Shown piece after piece: positions 26,941-37,333 of a DNA stretch of 64,000 nucleotides. The notes beneath the pieces are model-generated. The model made no database searches, was not told the DNA's origin, and was given only the letters and a program-made list of their open reading frames with translations. The number at the start of each line of letters is the position of its first letter. Position 1 is the stretch's first letter. A program made the translations under genes and the position numbers. Source of the DNA: Streptomyces sp. NBC_01454 (GTDB lineage: Bacteria > Actinomycetota > Actinomycetes > Streptomycetales > Streptomycetaceae); assembly GCF_036227565.1 (NCBI RefSeq), contig NZ_CP109460.1, positions 2,046,001 through 2,110,000 of the forward strand, in the 5' to 3' direction.

Positions 26941-28041
26941 TCACCAGTCCTCCTCGCGCGCGGCCACGTACCGCAGCACACCCCACATGCTGTGGGCGCC
27001 CGCCTCCGACGGTGTGCTGTCCCGGCAGTTCTCCAGCTCCTTGCGCAGGGCCGGCGCGTCGATGCCGCTGCCGATCATGACGAGCTGGGTGCACCGCTCC
27101 TCGCCCTTCGGCCACGGCGAGGGGTAGAAACGCAGGAAGTCACCGACCGCGTGCAGCGTGAACTTCTGGCGGTTCTCCGGCACGTCGAAGTGGACGAACC
27201 CCTTGATGCGGTAGAGACCGGCCGGGCGGCTGTCGAGGAAGTCCATGAGGCGGCGCGGGTGCATCGGCTCGGTGGAGGTGAACTCCACGCTCTGGTAGGC
27301 GGCGTGGAAGTGGCCCTCCGCGTGGGCATGGTCGGGGTGAGCGCAGTGGCCGTCGCAGTCGTGGGCGGCGTCCTCGTTCGCCACGGCCTCGCGCAACAGG
27401 TCCTCGAAGGACAGCTGCCGTACGGCCGGGTCGTCGCCCTCCCCCGGCGCGCGGTCGAAGAACAGCTCCGGGTCGACCCGGCCGTACGCCGTGCAGATCA
27501 CGGGCCGGCCGGGAGCGAGGTCGGCGAGGGTGGCGATGAGTTCCTGTCGTGCCGCGTCGCCGATGCGGTCGGCCTTGTTGAGCACCACGATGTCGGCGAT
27601 GCCCACATGCCGGTCCAGTTCGGGGTGGCGGGCCCTGGTGTCCTCGAATTCGGCGGCGTCGACGACCTCGATCAGGCCGCCGTAGACGATCCGGTCGTTC
27701 TCGCTGGCGAGGATCATCCGGATGAGTTCCTGCGGCTCGGCCAGTCCGCTGGCCTCGATGACGATCACATCGATGCGGGCTGCGGGGCGGGCGAGCCGTT
27801 CCAGGTAGGTGTCCAGTTCGCTGGTGTCCACGGCACAGCACAGACAGCCATTGCCGAGCGAGACCATCGAGTCCACCTGTCCGGCGACGGTCATGGCATC
27901 GATCTCGATGCTGCCGAAGTCATTGACGATCGCGCCGATACGGGTGCCGTCGCCGGTGCCGAGCAGATGGTTGAGGAGGGTGGTCTTGCCCGATCCGAGG
28001 AAGCCCGCGAGCACGACGACCGGGATCTGTTGCGTGGCCAA
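26941..28041 (-). CDS. CobW/COG0523 metal-chaperone GTPase
   Basis: 366 residues. G1 loop GFLGSGKT (13-20), the family's metal-binding GCLCC (65-69), Walker B region DVIVIEASGLAEP and NKAD for guanine specificity. A His/Asp/Cys-rich stretch near 235-260 (DCDGHCAHPDHAHAEGHFH) should bind Zn or another divalent metal; a CobW C-terminal domain follows. TTG start supported by GGAGG at spacing 7; a nearby ATG is out of frame. I looked for a Zur box upstream and did not find one. Likely delivers zinc or cobalt to a client enzyme. Confidence 0.9.
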   Translation of the reverse strand: MATQQIPVVVLAGFLGSGKTTLLNHLLGTGDGTRIGAIVNDFGSIEIDAMTVAGQVDSMVSLGNGCLCCAVDTSELDTYLERLARPAARIDVIVIEASGLAEPQELIRMILASENDRIVYGGLIEVVDAAEFEDTRARHPELDRHVGIADIVVLNKADRIGDAARQELIATLADLAPGRPVICTAYGRVDPELFFDRAPGEGDDPAVRQLSFEDLLREAVANEDAAHDCDGHCAHPDHAHAEGHFHAAYQSVEFTSTEPMHPRRLMDFLDSRPAGLYRIKGFVHFDVPENRQKFTLHAVGDFLRFYPSPWPKGEERCTQLVMIGSGIDAPALRKELENCRDSTPSEAGAHSMWGVLRYVAAREEDW

Positions 28042-28152
28042 GGGGGCGCCTCCATGGTGCGGGTGGCGGGCCGCGCGGACCGGCGGCGGACGAGCTGTCG
28101 ATCGTAACGGACCGCCGGCTGCGGGGGCCCGGCTCGGCCGCCGCACCGCCCG

Positions 28153-29322
28153 CTATCGGAGCGCGGTGGCGGGCAGCGGCTGCGGCGGGGGCGGGCCCAC
28201 GTACCGGGCGGCCGGCCGGATGATCTTCGAGTCCTCGGCCTGCTCCAGGATGTTGGCGCTCCAGCCGACCACGCGGGCCGCGCAGAAGGTGGGCGTGAAC
28301 ATCTCGCGCGGCAGCCCGCACAGCTCCATGACGACGCCCGCGTAGAGCTCCACGTTCGTGTGCAGCTCACGGCCGGGCTTGAGCTCGGCCAGCAGCGCTT
28401 CGACCCTCGCCTCCACCTGGACGGCGAAGTCCACCAGCGGGCCGCCGAACTGTTCGGCGACCCCTCGCAGCATCCTCGAACGCGGGTCCTCGGTGCGGTA
28501 GACGGAGTGGCCGAACCCCATGATCCGGTCCCCGCGGAGGACACTGTCGCGGATCCAGGAGTCGATGCGGTCAGGGGTACCGATGGCGTCGAGCATGTCC
28601 AGTGCGCGACTGGGGGCACCGCCGTGCAGCGGCCCGGAGAGCGCGCCGACGGCGCCTACGAGGCAGGCCGCGAGGTCGGCACCGGTGGAGGCGATGACGC
28701 GTGCGGTGAAGGTCGAGGCGTTGAATCCGTGGTCGATGGTGGAGATCAGATACGCCTCGATCGCCCGGACACGCTCCGGGTCCGGTTCTTCGCCCGTGAG
28801 CATGTAGAGGTAGTTGGCCGCGTGACCGAGGTCCGCACGCGGCTCGACAGGCTGGAGACCCTGACCGAGCCGGTGCAGCGCGGTGATCAGCGTCGGTACT
28901 GCGGCGCATGCGGCGAGGGCGTCGGTACGGCGGCGGTCGGCGTCGATGTCGTACAGCGGCCGGAAGCCGGCCGTTGCGCCGAGCAGCGACAACGCGGTAC
29001 GCAGCCCGGCGAGCGGGCCGGAGAGCACACCGGCACGGGCCAGGGCGGGCAACGCGTCGCGTACGGCCGCGGGCAGGGCGCGCAGTGCGGCGGTCTCGGC
29101 CCTGAAGGCGTCCAGCTGCACCGCATCGGGCAGCTCGCCGTGGAACATCAGGTACCACACGTCCTCGAAGCTGCGGGCCGAAGCCAGCTCGACGGCGGAG
29201 TACTGGCGGTAGTGGTAGAAGCCCTCCGCACCCCGGACGTCGCCCAATTGGGTCTCGGTGACGATGACGCCCGCGAGTCCGCGGGGCGCGTCGACCGGTG
29301 CGTTCACCTCGGCGATCGGCAT
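28153..29322 (-). CDS. Citrate synthase-like protein with Asp-to-Glu catalytic change
   Basis: 389 residues with the citrate synthase fold. The two catalytic histidines are present: H233 in GPLHGGAPS and H272 in GFGHSVY. The third catalytic residue, normally Asp in NVDFY, is Glu here (E325 in NVELYAG). CoA- and oxaloacetate-binding landmarks IDHGFNASTF and the final aromatic region are kept. Divergent from a second, HTH-bearing citrate synthase across 113 bases. It may be a slow citrate or 2-methylcitrate synthase or a subunit of a mixed oligomer. It is not the only citrate synthase expected in this genome. Confidence 0.87.
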   Translation of the reverse strand: MPIAEVNAPVDAPRGLAGVIVTETQLGDVRGAEGFYHYRQYSAVELASARSFEDVWYLMFHGELPDAVQLDAFRAETAALRALPAAVRDALPALARAGVLSGPLAGLRTALSLLGATAGFRPLYDIDADRRRTDALAACAAVPTLITALHRLGQGLQPVEPRADLGHAANYLYMLTGEEPDPERVRAIEAYLISTIDHGFNASTFTARVIASTGADLAACLVGAVGALSGPLHGGAPSRALDMLDAIGTPDRIDSWIRDSVLRGDRIMGFGHSVYRTEDPRSRMLRGVAEQFGGPLVDFAVQVEARVEALLAELKPGRELHTNVELYAGVVMELCGLPREMFTPTFCAARVVGWSANILEQAEDSKIIRPAARYVGPPPPQPLPATALR

Positions 29323-29354
29323 GGCTGATCTCCTTGCTCTCCCTCACCCGAATA

Positions 29355-29409
29355 ATTGATCCGACTGTCCATTCTCGACTCAATACTTGTCAATATTGAT
29401 TCCATCAAT
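29355..29409. promoter_or_regulatory. AT-rich operator candidate between divergent citrate synthase genes
   Basis: In a 72% GC neighbourhood this 55-base stretch is AT-rich and symmetrical: ATTGAT-TCC-ATCAAT (29395-29409) is a perfect dyad, overlapped by the 10-bp palindrome TCAATATTGA (29390-29399), with a further ATTGAT half-site at 29355 and CTCAAT at 29379. It lies where both promoters must be. The HTH domain of the rightward gene is the obvious candidate ligand. Confidence 0.65.
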
Positions 29410-29435
29410 GTGGACGGTCCGGATACGGTGGCCCC

Positions 29436-30686
29436 ATGGCAGACCAGCAGGAAGCGGCATCGGGCCGGGGCGGACAGCGGCTGAGCACCCGGGAGACGGC
29501 CGAACGGCTCGGCGTGAAGTCGGAGACGGTGTACGCCTATGTCAGCCGTGGCCAACTGACCAGCCGCCGCGAGCCGGGCAGTCGCGGCAGCACCTTCGAC
29601 GCGAAAGAGGTCGACGCACTGGCCCGTCGCGCCGGCCGCCGCGAACCCTCGACGCCGGGCAGCGAGTTGGCGATCCGCACCGGCATCACTCTGATCGACC
29701 GCGATCACTGTTACTTCCGCGGCGTCGACACATCAGAACTCGCCGCCCACTACAGCTACGAAGAAGTCGCCGAGTGGCTGTGGTCCGGCGAACTGCGCCC
29801 CGGCATCCGCTTCACCGCACCGCGCGACGCGCTGGCAGCTGCCCACCGCGCCGTTGAAGCGCTGCCGGCACACAGCGGACCGATGGACCGGCTACGGGTC
29901 GGCGTGATCGCCGCTGCGCACACCGACCCGCTCCGATTCGACCTGTCCGAAGACACCGTCGTCGATATCGCGCGCAGCCTCATCCCGACACTCGTCGACG
30001 CCTTGCCGCCGCACGCCCCGAAGCCACCAGCCGACGGCGCTCTCGCTGCACGCCTCTGGTCACGACTGACCGCGGAACCTGCCGATGCCGAGGCCCTCCG
30101 TGTGCTGGACGCCGCATTGGTCCTGCTCATCGACCACGACCTCGCGGCCTCGACGCTCGCGGTCCGGGTCGCCGCCTCCGCCCGCGCCCATCCGTACGCG
30201 ATCGTTTCGGCCGGGTTCGGGGCCTTGGACGGCGTGCTGCACGGCGCGGCAAGCGGATTTGCCCACCGGATGCTGGTGGAGGTACTGGACCGGGGCAGCG
30301 CGGCCGCCGTCGTGGCCGACCACCTGCGGGCCGGCCGACGGGTGCCAGGGCTCGGCCATCGCCTCTATCCCGGCGAGGACCCGCGGGCTCGCACCCTGTT
30401 CCGGCTTCTGGAGGAGGTGCCACGTGCCCATCCCGCCCTGCAGGCCGCCCGTGAAGTGATCACCACCACGGCCCGGCACACGGAGCTGCACGCCAATGTC
30501 GACCTGGCACTGGCCGTACTCACCGCTTCCACAGGCATGCCCGCCGAGGCCGGCGAAACGATCTTCGCTATTGCCCGCACAGCCGGCTGGATCGCGCACG
30601 CCCTGGAGGAATACACCGAACACCCCCTCCGCATGCGCCCCAGCGGCCAGTACCACGGCCGCCGTCCACCACAGCCATTGCCGTGA
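29436..30686 (+). CDS. Citrate synthase-like protein with N-terminal helix-turn-helix
   Basis: 416 residues. Residues 14-66 form an excisionase/MerR-like helix-turn-helix (LSTRETAERLGVKSETVYAYVSRGQL...DAKEVDALARR), followed by a citrate synthase domain with the complete catalytic triad: H269 (VLHGAAS), H308 (GLGHRLYP) and D356 (ANVDLA). The domain is somewhat shortened at its small-domain insert. An enzyme fused to a DNA-binding module suggests a metabolite-sensing repressor, with the palindromes just upstream as target. ATG start without an evident ribosome site. Confidence 0.88.
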   Translation: MADQQEAASGRGGQRLSTRETAERLGVKSETVYAYVSRGQLTSRREPGSRGSTFDAKEVDALARRAGRREPSTPGSELAIRTGITLIDRDHCYFRGVDTSELAAHYSYEEVAEWLWSGELRPGIRFTAPRDALAAAHRAVEALPAHSGPMDRLRVGVIAAAHTDPLRFDLSEDTVVDIARSLIPTLVDALPPHAPKPPADGALAARLWSRLTAEPADAEALRVLDAALVLLIDHDLAASTLAVRVAASARAHPYAIVSAGFGALDGVLHGAASGFAHRMLVEVLDRGSAAAVVADHLRAGRRVPGLGHRLYPGEDPRARTLFRLLEEVPRAHPALQAAREVITTTARHTELHANVDLALAVLTASTGMPAEAGETIFAIARTAGWIAHALEEYTEHPLRMRPSGQYHGRRPPQPLP

Positions 30687-30862
30687 GTGATGAGTTCGCG
30701 GGGCGCGGACGCTTCTCCATACGGAGCCGACGCCGAGACACCGACCCCGCCCACCACGACCGGCCTCGGCACTGCTGAGCTGCCCGCGAAGACTCCCAGG
30801 CAAGGCAACGCGACTTCGCCGTCACCCGCTGGGGGACCACCCGGCGTCGGGCACTCAGCGGA

Positions 30863-30881
30863 TGAGGTTAGGCTCACCTAT
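30863..30881 (+). promoter_or_regulatory. Iron box (DmdR/IdeR-type operator)
   Basis: TGAGGTTAGGCTCACCTAT matches the Streptomyces iron-box consensus TTAGGTTAGGCTCACCTAA at 17 of 19 positions. It abuts the GTG start codon of the next gene, so bound repressor would block both promoter and start. Predicts derepression under iron limitation. Confidence 0.88.
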
Positions 30882-31880
30882 GTGAGTACCTGTGCCACCG
30901 CTTCCCGTGAATCGGCCGAATCTCTCACCGCGACGGCGGCCACCGCCCGGACCTGGCTGCTCATCGAGCAGACGGGACCCTGGGGAGCCCAAGCGTTGAC
31001 GGACAGTCACCTCGATCCTGATGTCGGCCGGGCCCTGGAGGCCGCGACCGCGGGGACGGGCGTACGTGTCGCCCTGATCCGCCGACCCGGGCGTCATGCC
31101 GACTGCCACGGCACGTCCCGGCGCCGGATGTTCCTGGCGCACACCGCCCCCGGACGCACCTGGATCCGCACCACCACCGCCACCGACCCGCGAGCGGCTC
31201 TCGGTCTGGATTTCAAGGCTTTGGGGGCAGGCGAGCACCACAACCTCTGGGAGCCGTACATCGGTGAACCGCTGGTCCTCGTGTGCACCAACGGCAAGCG
31301 GGACCGCTGCTGCGCCCTGCTCGGGCGCCCGCTGGCCGCCGAGCTCGCCGCCGACGGGGCCGAGGCCTGGGAAGTCACCCACATCGGAGGGCATCGCTTC
31401 TCCCCCACGCTGTTCGTCCTCCCCTACGGCTACGCCTACGGACGCGCCTCGGCCCCCCTCGTCAAGGAGGCTGTGGAAGCGGCGCGCGACGGACGGATCA
31501 CGATCGACCACTGTCGTGGCCGCTCGGCGTGGGACCGGCCGGGCCAGGCCGCCGACCTGGCGGTCCGCGAGCTGCTCGGGGAGGACCGGGCGGACGCACT
31601 CGACGTCGTACGGACCGACACGGTGCGGCCCGAACCGAGGCCGGCCGACAGTTCGATGCCCGGTAGCTCTGCGCTCACGGGAGCCTCCTCCGCGTGGGCT
31701 GTCACCGTGGCGCACTCCGACGGCCGCAGCTGGCAGGTCACCGTCGAACAGCGGGCCGATGGTGCTGCGGCGCCCGCCAGCTGTGGTGCGCCGCTCGGTC
31801 CACCGGCGCGTATGGCCGTTGTCTCCATCGCCGCGGTGAACCGTATGCCGGGGAGGACGGCGCAGGCTGTCGGCAGCTGA
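30882..31880 (+). CDS. Sucrase/ferredoxin-like family protein (iron-regulated)
   Basis: 332 residues of the thioredoxin-fold sucrase/ferredoxin-like family. The N-terminus STCATASRESAESLTATAATARTWLL fits the family only from this GTG, although the frame is open to an ATG at 30687. Conserved cysteines occur in HADCHGTSRR, CTNGKRDRCCALLGRP and IDHCRGRS; the CTNG...RCC region is the likely [2Fe-2S] site. The iron box ends at the base before the GTG and no Shine-Dalgarno is present, so the transcript is probably leaderless. A role in iron or siderophore-linked electron transfer is inferred from regulation. Confidence 0.85.
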   Translation: MSTCATASRESAESLTATAATARTWLLIEQTGPWGAQALTDSHLDPDVGRALEAATAGTGVRVALIRRPGRHADCHGTSRRRMFLAHTAPGRTWIRTTTATDPRAALGLDFKALGAGEHHNLWEPYIGEPLVLVCTNGKRDRCCALLGRPLAAELAADGAEAWEVTHIGGHRFSPTLFVLPYGYAYGRASAPLVKEAVEAARDGRITIDHCRGRSAWDRPGQAADLAVRELLGEDRADALDVVRTDTVRPEPRPADSSMPGSSALTGASSAWAVTVAHSDGRSWQVTVEQRADGAAAPASCGAPLGPPARMAVVSIAAVNRMPGRTAQAVGS

Positions 31881-32491
31881 CCGCAAGGGTTCCGCCGCGC
31901 ACCCGCCTGGCGCTTCATCGCCGTCGTCCCTCACCCGAGGCACATCGGGGACTTCGACTCTGCCGAGTCGACGACCCCGAGGCCGGTGACCACCGCAGCT
32001 CGACGGTGCTGTCCCTGCGGGCGGGCGAGGCTCCTCCTGCGGCATACGCCTCCGCCAGGACCACGTGAGACTGCAGGCGAATCGCACTGACCAGCCGCGC
32101 CGGGACAGCGCGCCCCCGGCGCGGAGGCGACCGGGCGGGGCCCCACCAGCCACCCTCCACGACTTACGCCAGGCCCCGCAGCCCTCCCCCGTCCACCGCA
32201 TGACCACTCCCTTCCGCGCGCCCCATCGCGCACCTCGCCCTGCAACCGGTGGTCCTCAAACCGCCGCCCGCAGAGCCCAGTCGGCTTCACCGTTCGAGGC
32301 TAAGTGCGCACTTTCCGCAACCGACAGGCCTGTGGATAACTCCGCGCAGCAGCCGAAGGCGCCTTCCGCGGCGGCCCGTGATCGGACGCGGTCGGGCGAC
32401 GTCACGTATGCGTCGCCACCCGGCCACGCTCCGAATTCGCCCCCGTGAGGGATTACCGGCCCGACCATCACCGCACTTACTGTTCGTTCGT
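31881..32491. other. Gene-free 600-base stretch before the CitA-type kinase
   Basis: Several overlapping open frames exist on both strands, all Arg/Pro/Ala-rich in the way of chance high-GC frames, none with a ribosome site. The right third is less GC-rich. The only recognisable element is a DnaA box at 32331. It probably contains the promoter of the kinase gene; TTACTGTTCGTTCGT directly before the kinase ATG hints at a short or absent leader. Confidence 0.5.
32331..32339 (-). promoter_or_regulatory. Isolated DnaA box
   Basis: TGTGGATAA, i.e. TTATCCACA on the minus strand, a perfect match to the classical 9-mer. It lies inside the 14-base string CCTGTGGATAACTC, which recurs exactly at 52275 in the paired-box palindrome. 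Confidence 0.55.
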
Positions 32492-34372
32492 ATGGGCGAA
32501 AAGGAAGAGTCCGTTCCGCGCCCGAGCGCCACGGAGCCCTCGGGTTCCGCGCCGCTTCCCGCCGCCGCAATTGTCTCCCGGGGCACCAGCGGCAAGCCGC
32601 GCGATGCCACGCATGCGCCCGGCGGTCGGCCGGCCCAGCCCGACCGCGAACCGGTCGTCTCCAGGTTGCGTCGACCGCACCTGGGCTGGCCCCGGAAGGT
32701 GTTCTCCCAGGTCCTGATGGTGCAGTTGGCCATCGCCGCGGGAGTCACGGCACTGGCCACCGGTCTGTTCCTCGCCCCGCTCAGTGCGCAACTCGATGAT
32801 CAAGCGATGCGTCGTGCCCTGTCCATCGCGCAGACCACCGCCGCCGAATCACGTCTCGACGACGCCCTGGAGTCCTCCCGCCCGACACGCCACGGCCCCG
32901 TGCAGAACGAGGCGGAGCGGATTCGCGCCGCCACCGGAGCCGAGTACGTGGTGATCATGGACAAGCGGGGAGTGCGTTGGTCCCACACCGACCCGGCCGA
33001 GATCGGGCGCCATGTCTCGACCGACCCCAGCGTCGTGCTCTCCGGCCGGCAAGTCATGCAGATTGACGAAGGCACTCTCGGCCGGTCCGCACGCGGCAAG
33101 GTCCCGCTCCGTGACGAGCAAGGCAAGATCGTCGGAGCGGTGTCCGTCGGCATCGCGTACAAGAGCGTGCAGGAACGGCTGCTCTCCACCGTCCCCCAGC
33201 TGCTTGCGTACGCCGGCGGGGCGCTCGCCGTGGGCGCTCTCGCCGCTTACCTCGTCTCCCGCCGCCTCCAGCGCCGTACGCACGATTTGGCGTTCTCCGA
33301 CATCTCCGCGCTGCTCGCCGAGCGGGAAGCAATGCTGCACGGCATCCGTGAGGGGTTCCTCGCGCTCGACAGGCAGGGCCGTATCCGCCTCATGAACGAC
33401 GAGGCGCAGCGCCTCCTGGAGCTCCGTGCCGAGGACATCGGCCGTCCCCTGGAAGCGGCTCTGCCTCCCGGTCGTACGACCGATGTGCTGGCCGGCCGTG
33501 TGTCAGGGGCGGACCTGCTGGCCGTCAGCGGGCACCGGGTCCTGGTGGCGAACCGCATGCCGACCGAGGACGGAGGTGCCGTCGTCACCTTGCGCGACCG
33601 CACGGAGCTGGAACGGCTCGGCCGCGAACTGGACGGCACCCGGGGCCTCATCGATGCCCTACGCGCCCAGGACCACGAGCACGCCAACCGGCTGCACACG
33701 CTCCTCGGACTGCTCGAACTCGGGCTGCACGAAGAGGCAGTGGAGTTCGTGACACAGGCCGTGGGCGTGCACCGTGCGACCGCCGAGCAGGTCACCGAGC
33801 GTATCCACGATCCGCTGCTGGCCGCCCTCCTGGTGGGCAAGGCCACCGTCGCCACCGAGCGCGGCGTCTCCCTCAGCATCTCGCCCGATGCGTACCTGCC
33901 CGACCGTCTGGTCGATCCGCACAGCCTCGTCACCGTGCTCGGCAACCTCGTGGACAACGCCTTGGACGCCGCGTCAGGTGAACGGGACGCCCTCGTGGAA
34001 GTGGAGGTTCGCACCATCGGCCGAACCGCCGTCCTGCGGGTCAGCGACAACGGGCCGGGCGTGCCCGAAGCACGTCGCGCCGAGATCTTCACCGAGGGCT
34101 GGACGACCAAGGATCCGCCCTCCCACGGGCAGCGCGGCATCGGTCTGGCGCTCGTGCGGCGTCTCGCCGAGCGCTATGGAGGCAGCGCCGAGGTCGGCGA
34201 GCGCCCCCGTGGTGGTGCGGTATTCACGGTGACGGTCCCTGACGCACTGTCCGATGAGCTGCCGGCGGGGCGTGAAGCGCCCCTCCAGGAGGCAGTCGCA
34301 GAATCCGCCAGCACCAGACGGGCCACGGCGAGCACGCGCCTTCCCGGAGGCGCAACGGGGGGCGGCCGATGA
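32492..34372 (+). CDS. CitA/DcuS-type sensor histidine kinase
   Basis: 626 residues. Disordered N-terminus about 1-65, TM1 about 70-92, a periplasmic-type Cache sensor about 100-225 (with VVIMDKRGVRWSHTDPAEIGR typical of carboxylate sensors), TM2 about 232-252, a PAS domain, then the family H-box DHEHANRLHTLLGLLELG and an ATPase domain (NLVDNALDA, DNGPGVP, RGIGLALVRRL). The tail is low-complexity. Overlaps the next gene by four bases (ATGA). Family members sense citrate, C4-dicarboxylates or similar acids. The start is uncertain because no Shine-Dalgarno is visible. Confidence 0.9.
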   Translation: MGEKEESVPRPSATEPSGSAPLPAAAIVSRGTSGKPRDATHAPGGRPAQPDREPVVSRLRRPHLGWPRKVFSQVLMVQLAIAAGVTALATGLFLAPLSAQLDDQAMRRALSIAQTTAAESRLDDALESSRPTRHGPVQNEAERIRAATGAEYVVIMDKRGVRWSHTDPAEIGRHVSTDPSVVLSGRQVMQIDEGTLGRSARGKVPLRDEQGKIVGAVSVGIAYKSVQERLLSTVPQLLAYAGGALAVGALAAYLVSRRLQRRTHDLAFSDISALLAEREAMLHGIREGFLALDRQGRIRLMNDEAQRLLELRAEDIGRPLEAALPPGRTTDVLAGRVSGADLLAVSGHRVLVANRMPTEDGGAVVTLRDRTELERLGRELDGTRGLIDALRAQDHEHANRLHTLLGLLELGLHEEAVEFVTQAVGVHRATAEQVTERIHDPLLAALLVGKATVATERGVSLSISPDAYLPDRLVDPHSLVTVLGNLVDNALDAASGERDALVEVEVRTIGRTAVLRVSDNGPGVPEARRAEIFTEGWTTKDPPSHGQRGIGLALVRRLAERYGGSAEVGERPRGGAVFTVTVPDALSDELPAGREAPLQEAVAESASTRRATASTRLPGGATGGGR

Positions 34373-35043
34373 TCAACGTACTGGTCGTGGACGACGACGT
34401 GCGCGTGGCAAAGATCAACGCAGCGTATGTCGCCAAGACTGACGGGTTCCGGGTCAGCTGCCTCGCGCACACCGCCGCGGAAGCCCTCGCGGCCCTGGAG
34501 AGCCACCCCGTCGACTTGATCCTCCTGGACCACTATCTTCCCGACAGGACAGGGCTCCAGCTGGTCGGCGACCTGCGACGCCGCGGTGTGCTCACCGACG
34601 TGATCATGGTGACGGCCGCGCGCGACATCGCCACCGTGCACGCTGCCATGCGTCACGGCGCACTGCAGTATCTGGTCAAGCCGTTCACCTTCGCCGGCCT
34701 GCGCTCCAAGTTGGAAGGCTATGCCGCACTGCACCGCACCTTTGCGGGCGGCGGACAGGCGGAGCAGTCCGAAGTGGACCGGATCTTCGGCACGTTGGCA
34801 TCCGCCAACGCGGGTCCCGCCGAGTTGCCGAAGGGACACTCCACCGCCACCGCGGACCGCGTGCGCTCGGTACTGCGCTCCGCGGAAGCCTCGCTGTCCG
34901 CGCAGGACGTCGCTGTTCAGGCGGGGCTGAGCCGGCAGACGGCGCAGCGCTACCTCAAGCTCCTGGAGCGCGCAGGGCGGGTGCGCCTGACCCTCAAGTA
35001 CGGCGAGACCGGCCGCCCCGAGCACCGCTACGAGTGGGTCTAG
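34369..35043 (+). CDS. CitB-type response regulator
   Basis: 224 residues. Receiver domain 1-120 with D8-D10 pocket, phospho-acceptor D54 (LILLDHYLPD) and K104 (LVKPF). The C-terminal helix-turn-helix (LSAQDVAVQAGLSRQTAQRYLKLLERAG) is of the CitB/DpiA class. Translationally coupled to the kinase. Ends 167 bases from, and convergent with, a sodium:solute symporter gene, which is a reasonable regulatory target though not proven by position. Confidence 0.92.
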   Translation: MINVLVVDDDVRVAKINAAYVAKTDGFRVSCLAHTAAEALAALESHPVDLILLDHYLPDRTGLQLVGDLRRRGVLTDVIMVTAARDIATVHAAMRHGALQYLVKPFTFAGLRSKLEGYAALHRTFAGGGQAEQSEVDRIFGTLASANAGPAELPKGHSTATADRVRSVLRSAEASLSAQDVAVQAGLSRQTAQRYLKLLERAGRVRLTLKYGETGRPEHRYEWV

Positions 35044-35210: not shown

Positions 35211-36815
35211 TTAAGCCGCACCCGCACCCGTGAGCGCCCGTACCTCCGTCTCTGCATGACGTGCTTCGTCGGCAGCCTCCGGGGAGAGCAGTGTTCCCAG
35301 CCAGCCCATCAGGAAGCCCAAGGGAATCGATACGACACCAGGGTTCTCGAGCGGGAAGACGGCGAAATCCAGCCCGGGGAAGATCGACTCCGTGCCACCC
35401 GAGACCACCGGCGAGAGCACGACCAGGGTGATCGCCGGGATCAGTCCGCCGTACACGGACCAGACCGCCCCCCGGGTCGTGAAGCGGCGCCAGAAGAGGG
35501 TGTACAGCAGGACGGGCAGGTTGGCCGAAGCCGCGACCGCAAATGCCAGCCCCACCAGGAAGGCAACGTTCAAGTCCTGGGCGAGGAGGCTGAGGCCGAT
35601 GGCCACCGCGCCGACCGCCACCGCTGCGATCCGCGCCACAGCCACCTCGGCACGCTGGGCGTCCTGCACGGTGCCACGCGGGCGTCGCAGCGACGCATAC
35701 AGATCGTGCGCAACCGAGGCCGACGAGGCGAGCGTGATGCCGGCGACCACGGCCAGGATGGTGGCGAACGCGACCGCGGCCACCACGGCGAAGAGAACCG
35801 TCCCTCCGGTCGAACCGGCGCCGCCTCCCAGGTTGAGGGCGAGCAGCGGGACCGCGGTGTTGCCGGCCGTATTGGACGCATGGACCGCGGAGCTGCCCAG
35901 CACCGCTGCGGCGCCGAAGCCGAGCACGATGGTCATCAGGTAGAAGCCGCCGATCAGGCCGATGGACCAGACGACGGAGCGACGGGCGGAGCGCGCTGTG
36001 GGGACGGTGTAGAAGCGGGAGAGGATGTGCGGCAGTCCGGCGGTCCCCAGGACCAGAGCGATGCCGAGGCTGATGAAATCGAGCCGCGCGGTCCAGCCGC
36101 CGCCGTACTTAAGGCCGGGAGTGAGGAACTCGCGGCCGTGGCCGCTGCGTTCGGCGGCGGTGTTCAGCAGAGTATTGAAGTCGCCGTGGAACCGGATCAG
36201 TACCAGGACGGTCAGGGCGATGGCACCGCCCATGAGGAGTACGGCCTTGACGATCTGGATCCAGGTTGTGGCCCGCATCCCGCCGAAGGCGACGTAGACC
36301 ACCATCAGGGCGCCGACCCCGATCACCATCCAGGTGCGGGCCTGCTGACTCGCGCCGCCCAGGAGCAGGGCGACCAGGCTGCCGGCGCCGACCATCTGCG
36401 CGACCAGGTAGAGCACGGATACCGTGACGGAGGCCGTGCCGGCCGCGATGCGTACGGGGCGCTCTCGCATCCGGGCGGCGACGACATCGGCGAGGGTGAA
36501 CCGGCCGCAGTTGCGGACGAGTTCGGCGACGAGGAAGAGGACGACGAGCCAGGCGACGAGGAAGCCGACCGAGTACAGCAGGCCGTCGTAGCCGAAGAGG
36601 GCAATCAGCCCGGAGATGCCGAGGAAGGACGCGGCCGACATGTAGTCACCCGCGATGGCGAACCCATTCTCCATGGGGGAGAACAGTCTCCCGCCCGCGT
36701 AGAACTCCTCGGCGGAGCCGTGCCGGCGGCGGCTCACCCAGGTCGTGATCGCCAGGGTGACGGCGATGAACACACTGAACAGGACCAGTGCGAGGGTCTG
36801 GTGGTCGCCGCTCAA
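35211..36815 (-). CDS. Sodium:solute symporter (acetate/pyruvate permease-like)
   Basis: 534 residues with about 13 transmembrane helices, SSS family. Typical landmarks are present: EEFYAGGRLFSPMENGFAIAGD near the N-terminus, GYDGLLYSVGFLVAW and GTAGLPHILSRFYTV. These resemble ActP/MctC-type monocarboxylate transporters. The TTG start overlaps the stop of the DUF485 gene by four bases (TTGA) and follows GGGGGGAA, so the pair is translationally coupled. Likely imports acetate, propionate or pyruvate with Na+ or H+. Confidence 0.9.
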   Translation of the reverse strand: MSGDHQTLALVLFSVFIAVTLAITTWVSRRRHGSAEEFYAGGRLFSPMENGFAIAGDYMSAASFLGISGLIALFGYDGLLYSVGFLVAWLVVLFLVAELVRNCGRFTLADVVAARMRERPVRIAAGTASVTVSVLYLVAQMVGAGSLVALLLGGASQQARTWMVIGVGALMVVYVAFGGMRATTWIQIVKAVLLMGGAIALTVLVLIRFHGDFNTLLNTAAERSGHGREFLTPGLKYGGGWTARLDFISLGIALVLGTAGLPHILSRFYTVPTARSARRSVVWSIGLIGGFYLMTIVLGFGAAAVLGSSAVHASNTAGNTAVPLLALNLGGGAGSTGGTVLFAVVAAVAFATILAVVAGITLASSASVAHDLYASLRRPRGTVQDAQRAEVAVARIAAVAVGAVAIGLSLLAQDLNVAFLVGLAFAVAASANLPVLLYTLFWRRFTTRGAVWSVYGGLIPAITLVVLSPVVSGGTESIFPGLDFAVFPLENPGVVSIPLGFLMGWLGTLLSPEAADEARHAETEVRALTGAGAA

Positions 36816-37333
36816 CGGATGTTCCCCCCGGTGAGTTCCTGTGTTTCCCAGCGGATGTCGAGTGCCGCGCGGTCCCTGCGCAGCCGTGCGTGGCGCGCGT
36901 AGGCCCAGGTGAGCAGGAACGTGGTGGCGAACTGGCCGAGCCCGGCGAGCATCGCGACGTTCAGCGCGCCGACGACGCGATGGGCCATGAGTCCCGGCGC
37001 GGCGGTCGCGGCAACCACATAGGCGAGGTACCAGGTCAGGAAGATCGTCGTGCCGGGAAGGACGAACCGCCGGTAGCGGCGACGCACCTCCTGGAAGGCC
37101 GCGCTTCGCTGCACTGCCAGATAGATCTCGTCGTGCGGTGCGGACCGTGGTTCCGCTACCGGTACGGGCGCGGGTACCGGGACCGGTTCGGGTTTCTCCG
37201 TGCGGTCCCACTCCCCCGCTGGTTGCGCCGCGTCATCCAGCTCGCCCCACCCGGAGGCGAGAGCGTCGTACCAGGGGTCGTCGAGCCGTAGGGCCCCTGA
37301 CTCACCGGCCGAACGGCCGTCCTGCTTGTCCAC
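36812..37333 (-). CDS. DUF485 membrane protein
   Basis: 173 residues. The first 65 are polar and Pro/Val-rich (a PVPVPAPVPV run), followed by the DUF485 core with two TM helices (about 90-115 and 125-150) and a basic end. GTG start behind AAGGAGAG. DUF485 proteins (YjcH in E. coli) are encoded with ActP-type symporters and are thought to assist them; this gene directly precedes and overlaps such a symporter. Confidence 0.9.
   Translation of the reverse strand: MDKQDGRSAGESGALRLDDPWYDALASGWGELDDAAQPAGEWDRTEKPEPVPVPAPVPVAEPRSAPHDEIYLAVQRSAAFQEVRRRYRRFVLPGTTIFLTWYLAYVVAATAAPGLMAHRVVGALNVAMLAGLGQFATTFLLTWAYARHARLRRDRAALDIRWETQELTGGNIR

Follow-up and report, generated by a model that had tools for sequence, protein, structure and literature searches.

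Two divergently transcribed genes encode proteins of the citrate synthase fold in a 64,000-nucleotide stretch of Streptomyces sp. NBC_01454 DNA (contig NZ_CP109460.1, positions 2,046,001 to 2,110,000; hereafter the window). The rightward protein, termed HTH-CS, joins a winged helix-turn-helix (HTH) to a citrate synthase domain, and is very probably a local one-component regulator that uses the citrate synthase domain as its sensor, is bound at an operator and controls its partner, which here is the leftward citrate synthase, termed L-CS. As judged by sequence comparison, the finding is larger than the window, and comprises a regulator family with its own predicted operator and exchangeable neighbouring genes. 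It points to a metabolite-sensing gene switch built on citrate synthase, of a kind so far undescribed. The combination of a DNA-binding and a ligand-binding domain that characterizes one-component regulators is found in the HTH_17 and citrate synthase domains of HTH-CS, and a specific operator at the target is predicted by comparative evidence. The features on which this reading depends are as follows.

28153..29322, minus strand: L-CS, a CitA-type citrate synthase of 389 amino acids, in which Glu325 takes the place of the catalytic Asp; predicted target of HTH-CS (open reading frame (ORF), Pfam, NCBIfam, alignment)
29323..29435, no strand: divergent regulatory region, 113 bp of intergenic DNA
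29436..30686, plus strand: HTH-CS, winged HTH and citrate synthase domain, 416 amino acids; predicted one-component regulator (ORF, Pfam, alignment, AlphaFold2)
29481..29630, plus strand: HTH_17 winged HTH of HTH-CS, residues 16-65 (PF12728, 27.5 bits against a cut-off of 27)
29670..30641, plus strand: citrate synthase domain of HTH-CS, residues 79-402, with catalytic and oxaloacetate/citrate contacts kept and coenzyme A (CoA) contacts mostly lost (PF00285, alignment)
29390..29411, plus strand: predicted operator TCAATATTGATTCCATCAATGT with the motif TCAAnnTTGAT-N3-ATCAAnnT, 25 bp upstream of the HTH-CS ATG and 68 bp upstream of the L-CS ATG (motif scans)

Domain structure of HTH-CS and L-CS

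An earlier reading of the sequence alone (the original prediction) described two citrate synthase-fold proteins facing away from each other across 113 bp, with an HTH and an intact His/His/Asp triad on the rightward protein and Glu at the catalytic Asp of the leftward one. Both statements are confirmed, the first by ORF coordinates, Pfam and the predicted fold of HTH-CS, and the second by alignment (H269/H308/D356 in HTH-CS, H233/H272/E325 in L-CS). The whole genome contains four PF00285 genes. With this profile, HTH-CS scores 223 bits against a Pfam cut-off of 27, which is below the 372 bits obtained by L-CS, a full-length citrate synthase. None of the NCBIfam citrate synthase cut-offs is reached by HTH-CS (best score 171 against 421), and one is passed by L-CS (PRK12350.1, 356 bits against 332).

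The N-terminal winged HTH of the HTH_17 profile is shared with MerR/HTH_17 regulators. However, HTH-CS falls below the cut-offs of both MerR models (PF00376, 17.3 against 28.2; PF13411, 15.9 against 21.6), and the candidate promoter described below does not hold the operator between its -35 and -10 elements, which is where a MerR-type operator sits. PF00376 or PF13411 is present as a precomputed domain in many of the listed HTH-CS relatives. An AlphaFold2 model based on an 18-sequence alignment (mean predicted local distance difference test score (pLDDT) 87, predicted template modelling score (pTM) 0.77) contains a winged HTH at residues 15-67 (helices 18-25, 29-37 and 56-67; strands 43-45 and 52-55), followed by a low-confidence linker at 69-77 and the citrate synthase fold. 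In a Foldseek search with this model the best match was 1iom, and all 50 of the 50 matches listed are citrate or methylcitrate synthases. The HTH segment is nearly invariant across phyla, with TVYAYVSRG (31-39) as one of the best-conserved stretches in the family. DNA binding by HTH-CS is predicted with high confidence.

The substrate pocket is preserved selectively. Positions corresponding to pig citrate synthase H274, H320, D375, R329, R401 and R421' are kept in 46/46 aligned HTH-CS sequences, and the H238 position is His in 42/46. By contrast, the R324 position is Pro in 37/46 HTH-CS and basic in 4/46, as against basic in 24/24 partners and 5/5 other citrate synthases; the position of L-CS R318 is basic in 2/46, as against 23/23 partners with the column filled and 5/5 other citrate synthases; and the loop residue Met268 is found in 0/46, as against 24/24 partners and 4/5 other citrate synthases. 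None of the 46 HTH-CS has the KPGR-loop Lys, but this residue was not counted as a lost CoA contact, because it also falls in a gap in 3/5 ordinary citrate synthases. Residues are numbered as in the pig enzyme, the R324 and R318 positions are taken as CoA contacts, and the citrate seen in citrate synthase crystals touches the residue set that HTH-CS keeps. Because these citrate contacts are kept and the CoA-contact positions are mostly lost, the simplest reading is that the domain would serve as a CoA-independent sensor of citrate or a similar acid. For the same reason the most likely effector class is a citrate- or oxaloacetate-like acid, an assignment to which we attach modest confidence. 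The metabolite gating proposed in the original prediction is inferred from the strictly kept oxaloacetate/citrate contacts; its suggestion of an acyl-CoA ligand has become less likely, because the CoA-contact residues are mostly lost.

The same pocket bears on the main rival explanation, namely that HTH-CS is a trigger enzyme, which would still make or split citrate or a related acid and would also regulate. Enzymes with a regulatory role are known, PutA and BirA among them, and the catalytic His/His/Asp positions are kept in 46/46 HTH-CS. However, the scarcity of basic residues at the R324 (4/46) and R318 (2/46) positions, compared with all partners and other citrate synthases, argues against catalysis, and we consider a trigger enzyme improbable. 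Trigger enzymes are discussed in the excerpted text of PMC7083601, which also provides a lead, and a lead only, against this explanation: of the consecutively numbered Caulobacter citrate synthase paralogues CitB and CitC (CCNA_03757/03758), compared here by description only, CitB complements E. coli gltA, whereas the adjacent CitC fails to replace GltA.

The description of L-CS as catalytically altered in the original prediction was correct as to the presence of Glu, but overstated, as this Glu is common to CitA-type enzymes. It occupies the catalytic Asp column in 23/23 partner genes with the column filled, in L003, a paralogue encoded in this genome, and in the structures 2c6x and 8gi7, both of which have Asn-Val-Glu at this point in the printed alignments. 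L-CS is of the same kind as 2c6x (named citrate synthase 1), which we take to be Bacillus subtilis CitA, and mycobacterial CitA (8gi7 and 6wgy, the latter a citrate complex by its title); it has the PF00285 match, the CoA loop and the Glu of this type, with a basic R324 position, as noted for all partners. Since the Glu is common to CitA of Bacillus and mycobacteria, to L003 and to the partners, it is, on the alignment, a mark of a citrate synthase subgroup and not a peculiarity of the pair, and its candidacy as an unusual feature of L-CS was rejected. An Asp-to-Glu exchange in E. coli citrate synthase reportedly favours citryl-CoA cleavage (conversion to citryl-CoA lyase). The B. subtilis citA gene adjoins citR, which encodes a LysR-type regulator.

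The predicted operator motif and its distribution

The motif was formalized as TCAAnnTTGAT-N3..7-ATCAAnnT after a shared element had been recognized in intergenic sequence from the window and from 22 further loci. Of 44 listed representatives, four (L147, L159, L160 and L161) were missed by the HTH regular expression, and were scanned as whole loci instead of being scored upstream. A motif with at most one mismatch lies upstream of the HTH segment in 36/40 scored representatives (the misses are L040, L057, L162 and L165), and for each of the 36, none of 40 shuffled sequences contains one as good. When gapped words (4+4) were counted in the same 40 upstream regions, misses included, TCAA-N2-TTGA was the commonest, with 35/40; the leading word of every one of 10 shuffled sets reached 7-9. 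In a previous count, made on 23 picked regions of which none was motif-less, the figure was 22/23.

Outside the genus, a motif with at most one mismatch is present in 42/45 loci, in every case in a promoter region, with no other match in 294,536 bases. The three exceptions are L040, L147 (two mismatches) and L042, a contig end that lacks the HTH part. Within a set of 80 Streptomyces-type loci the corresponding figure is 75. The motif is conserved across phyla. In L152, L156, L161 and L164, the HTH-CS start as annotated lies in or ahead of the motif. Spacer length tends to track lineage. It is N3-4 in Streptomyces, Embleya, Nonomuraea and f29 and N7 in Proteobacteria, and most Rubrobacteraceae-type loci and Deinococcus have N6. 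Upstream of HTH-CS in L040 is TCAATATTGATCAATAT, as if two half-sites had merged. In the betaproteobacterial loci L158 and L166, a second, overlapping copy (N6, one mismatch) lies 15 bp away on the other strand, which suggests multi-site binding.

Strong matches to the motif are also specific to this locus. In the 9.46 Mb genome, the N3 pattern has one exact match, plus its own opposite-strand reading at one mismatch, and widening the pattern to N3-7 still yields one exact match; in the window, two matches are found where 0.01 are expected. A wide regulon of strong sites was rejected on the single exact site in the genome. Among 61 Streptomyces genomes searched at up to one mismatch, the motif is at the locus in 34/36 that have HTH-CS (all but G060 and G013), and elsewhere in 1/25 that lack it (G028); a control pattern has no match. 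In 296 Actinomycetota genomes the exact motif is present in 29, including 17 of the 27 with a recognized HTH-CS (a number that excludes G137, a weaker match starting at residue 14), where it is at that locus; the control pattern has one match each in two genomes.

When the gene arrangement changes, the motif follows the presumed target. Four loci have HTH-CS at the end of an operon, and in all of them (4/4) two copies of the motif are at the divergent promoter of that operon, with none before HTH-CS. In the tandem pair (G032, L080), one copy precedes L-CS and one precedes HTH-CS, and in L057 the motif is about 140 bp before the partner and 1.1 kb from HTH-CS. It is intact in 74/75 Streptomyces-type loci with a partner (L083 is rearranged), as against 1/5 without, and the sole partner-less locus with an intact motif, L078, keeps approximately the first 40 codons of the partner. 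This movement and decay with the partner is the behaviour expected of a target-bound operator, as far as sequence can tell. It strongly supports the regulatory part of the module envisaged in the original prediction, and control of the partner gene by HTH-CS is, like DNA binding, a prediction in which we place considerable trust. Two further partner situations were observed. The HTH-CS genes of L038 and L039 have no partner in the surrounding DNA, and their HTH segments are perfectly kept. In G012, an exact motif is found just upstream of HTH-CS (C1:3427052-3427073), though the L-CS match is partial (residues 91-386 only) and distant.

Conservation of the pair and exchange of neighbouring genes

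At thresholds of at least 67% identity for HTH-CS and at least 74% for L-CS, each gene is present in 36 of the 61 Streptomyces genomes (the HTH-CS of G019 is split in two pieces). Both genes are found in 35 genomes and neither in 24, with L-CS alone in G027 and HTH-CS alone in G013. By coordinates, 33 of the 35 two-gene genomes have divergent neighbours, and the others are tandem (G032) or far apart (G012); the divergent arrangement, the loss of which in close relatives had been named as evidence that would count against the original prediction, is therefore retained. The best 80 loci of a scan of genome contigs, all from Streptomyces or near kin, include 74 divergent pairs, one tandem pair (L080) and five loci without L-CS (L078, L081, L125, L129 and L140). 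The spacing is 55-213 bp in 72 of the divergent loci, and 565 and 4082 bp in the other two. A second, distant protein in G003 (contig C22, 25824-29453) matches HTH-CS residues 12-397 at 35% identity, and is on the same strand as another citrate synthase-like match.

Beyond the genus, the search of 296 Actinomycetota genomes turned up 20 from other families that encode HTH-CS (35-49% identity), and at 16/20 of these loci a divergent citrate synthase lies within 4 kb; the L047 protein is identical to a Rubrobacter tropicus record. Additional HTH-CS genes were obtained from a plasmid collection, and belong to Embleya, Nonomuraea, Tsukamurella, two Deinococcus and various Alpha- and Betaproteobacteria. 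The evidence from Proteobacteria and Deinococcus comes from this hand-picked collection, as the best 80 genome-contig matches are all Streptomyces-type. In 25 named records from other genera, 21 divergent and four with an operon-terminal HTH-CS, the neighbours of HTH-CS are as follows.

Citrate synthase: 8/25 (L143, L147, L149, L152, L154, L155, L164, L167)
CoA transferase: 3/25 (L144, L148, L153)
HMGL-like protein: 3/25 (L146, L150, L163)
2-hydroxyacid dehydrogenase: 3/25 (L145, L158, L166)
MFS transporter: 3/25 (L151, L157, L161)
DUF2332 protein: 1/25 (L156)
HTH-CS last after same-strand SDR, MFS and VOC genes: 4/25 (L159, L160, L162, L165)

The promoter region of the SDR/MFS/VOC operon is shared with a divergent D-glycerate dehydrogenase gene in all four of the last records. 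In 17/25 records the neighbour is not a citrate synthase, and HTH-CS and the motif (at most one mismatch) are kept in all 17; an HMGL-like neighbour is also found in the actinomycetotal L041. HMGL-type enzymes are unrelated to citrate synthase, and some of them produce comparable 2-hydroxy acids through a condensation with acyl-CoA.

These exchanges are difficult to reconcile with the proposal, also made in the original prediction, that HTH-CS and L-CS form a hetero-oligomer in which the former tethers the latter to DNA. Citrate synthase folds are dimers with shared active sites, both chains here have this fold, and the co-occurrence of the pair is deep. However, HTH-CS has its own full set of oxaloacetate-contact positions, and the 17 records with a different neighbour nonetheless retain HTH-CS and its motif. 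An obligate hetero-oligomer was rejected because the neighbouring gene is exchanged among lineages, tethering is not supported as a general function of HTH-CS, and we regard a hetero-oligomer in any form as very unlikely. Instead, it is reasonably likely that the HTH-CS family of Actinomycetota, Deinococcota and Proteobacteria is a portable cassette of regulator and operator, in which a domain stripped of its CoA site senses citrate-like acids, and which has been placed before a range of carboxylic-acid and acyl-CoA enzymes, among them an HMGL-type Claisen synthase that stands in for citrate synthase without being related to it.

A tree of 75 citrate synthase domains, rooted at the midpoint only, places all 46 HTH-CS sequences from the three phyla on one side of one branch (100/100 for ultrafast bootstrap and the Shimodaira-Hasegawa-like approximate likelihood ratio test (SH-aLRT)), and groups the 24 partner citrate synthases together with L003. 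The tree program warned of long branches (including L147, L057, L001 and L003) and of a meeting of long branches at the base of the HTH group. Because of the midpoint root and these warnings, a single origin of HTH-CS is likely rather than proved.

Promoter region, proposed mechanism and related systems

Three further elements were assigned in the regulatory region.

29388..29393, minus strand: candidate -35 element of the L-CS promoter, TTGACA, overlapping the operator (18- or 17-bp spacing to GACAGT in 62/81 upstream regions)
29364..29369, minus strand: candidate -10 element of the L-CS promoter, GACAGT (comparison of upstream regions)
29356..29371, plus strand: by-eye match to the MtrA site published for S. 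coelicolor, TTGACTTAACTGTCCA, which in this genome reads TTGATCCGACTGTCCA; it adjoins the operator and is distinct from it

In the mechanism proposed, HTH-CS, a local one-component transcription regulator with a winged HTH joined to a citrate synthase domain, would bind the 29390-29411 motif in the divergent promoter region as a dimer, and would thereby control the partner gene (here L-CS), together with its own gene at loci where the two share the motif. The citrate synthase domain would act as the sensor, with a citrate- or oxaloacetate-like acid as effector, perhaps one that the partner enzyme makes or consumes. On the operator, HTH-CS would cover the L-CS -35 element, and ligand-modulated repression is the likeliest outcome because the motif overlaps this probable -35. 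We consider repression likely, and activation of the partner possible but doubtful: the edge of the motif touches the predicted -35 and could position HTH-CS as an activator, but the overlap, together with the 25-bp distance to the HTH-CS start, fits occlusion better.

Several observations weigh against the interpretation of HTH-CS as an operator-bound regulator. A promoter and terminator scan of 29250-29500 found none, and the fully kept catalytic triad of HTH-CS also fits retained catalysis. The loci in which the motif was first spotted by eye were themselves included in the later counts. The motif is incomplete in L040, present only in a two-mismatch version in L147, and missing at one mismatch from G060, which has both genes; G013 has HTH-CS with neither partner nor motif. 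In the partner-less L081, L125, L129 and L140, the operator is decayed or missing while the HTH segment is perfectly kept. The genome contains 19 further matches at three mismatches, as against one in all for a reversed control, and because of this excess, weak extra sites are possible. The exact motif is also present in 12/269 phylum genomes without a recognized HTH-CS, all of them under 3 Mb. Fisher tests on the genus and phylum counts ignore kinship, and their values are not to be read as probabilities; the long-branch warnings given above belong here as well.

A further possibility to consider is that a global regulator, for example MtrA, owns the motif and HTH-CS is a bystander. In the excerpted text of PMC12323332, SCO5831 and SCO5832 of S. 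coelicolor are putative citrate synthases, citA3 and citA4, and the DNA probe bound by MtrA lies between them; SCO5831 also appears in a transcriptome table as a citrate synthase-like gene (PMC7324645, in excerpt). This is probably the same locus as L-CS/HTH-CS, to judge by the pairing of the genes and the match to the described site. The two are alike in being a putative citrate synthase pair with a shared intergenic region, but the excerpted description, unlike that given here, is without an HTH, an operator of the pair's own or a regulatory role. Bound MtrA would be consistent with its ownership of the motif. However, the motif has one exact genome site, accompanies HTH-CS and is nearly absent without it in the genus, and also accompanies the HTH-CS genes of Proteobacteria and Deinococcus. 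Alignment by eye places the predicted MtrA site at 29356-29371 and not on the operator. On these grounds MtrA was rejected as owner of the motif, and a bystander role for HTH-CS is scarcely credible. Since the published site aligns with the neighbouring block, MtrA may instead provide a second regulatory layer. The statement in the original prediction that no function had been described for such a pair holds in that no regulator role was found in the open-licence papers searched, but it overlooked the naming of SCO5831/SCO5832 as citA3/citA4 and the binding of MtrA between them (PMC12323332, in excerpt).

In the open-licence PubMed Central (PMC) literature, no description of a transcription regulator with a citrate synthase domain was found. 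HTH-CS may be compared with the enzyme-derived one-component regulators BirA, PutA and NadR, in which a DNA-binding domain is likewise joined to an enzyme domain able to sense a metabolite. It differs from them in that the regulator and its motif persist across lineages whereas the gene beside them changes, and we know of no regulator of this type on the citrate synthase fold. If the interpretation of HTH-CS as a regulator is correct, a group of genes at present annotated as citrate synthase or citrate synthase family protein would become a regulator family with a predicted operator, the targets of which would be readable from sequence, and many annotations could be corrected. The family would then be a clean case of a central enzyme turned sensor with its substrate pocket kept, and would offer a testable answer to why many bacteria hold extra citrate synthase-like genes.

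The genes surrounding the pair were also recorded. Directly downstream of L-CS and on the same strand is a CobW-type GTPase gene (26941-28146, minus strand), a relative of which is near the pair in 68/80 Streptomyces-type loci. A PF06999 sucrase/ferredoxin-like ORF (30687-31880, plus strand) opens right after the HTH-CS stop codon, although its true start may be further in. Genes for an sCache/PAS/SPOB histidine kinase, a response regulator and a sodium:solute symporter are near the pair (32249-35043, plus strand; 35211-37211, minus strand), and amount to a two-component system of the organic-acid type plus a transporter. In the DNA around each of the 80 Streptomyces-type loci, relatives of the histidine kinase were found at 65 and of the response regulator at 55.

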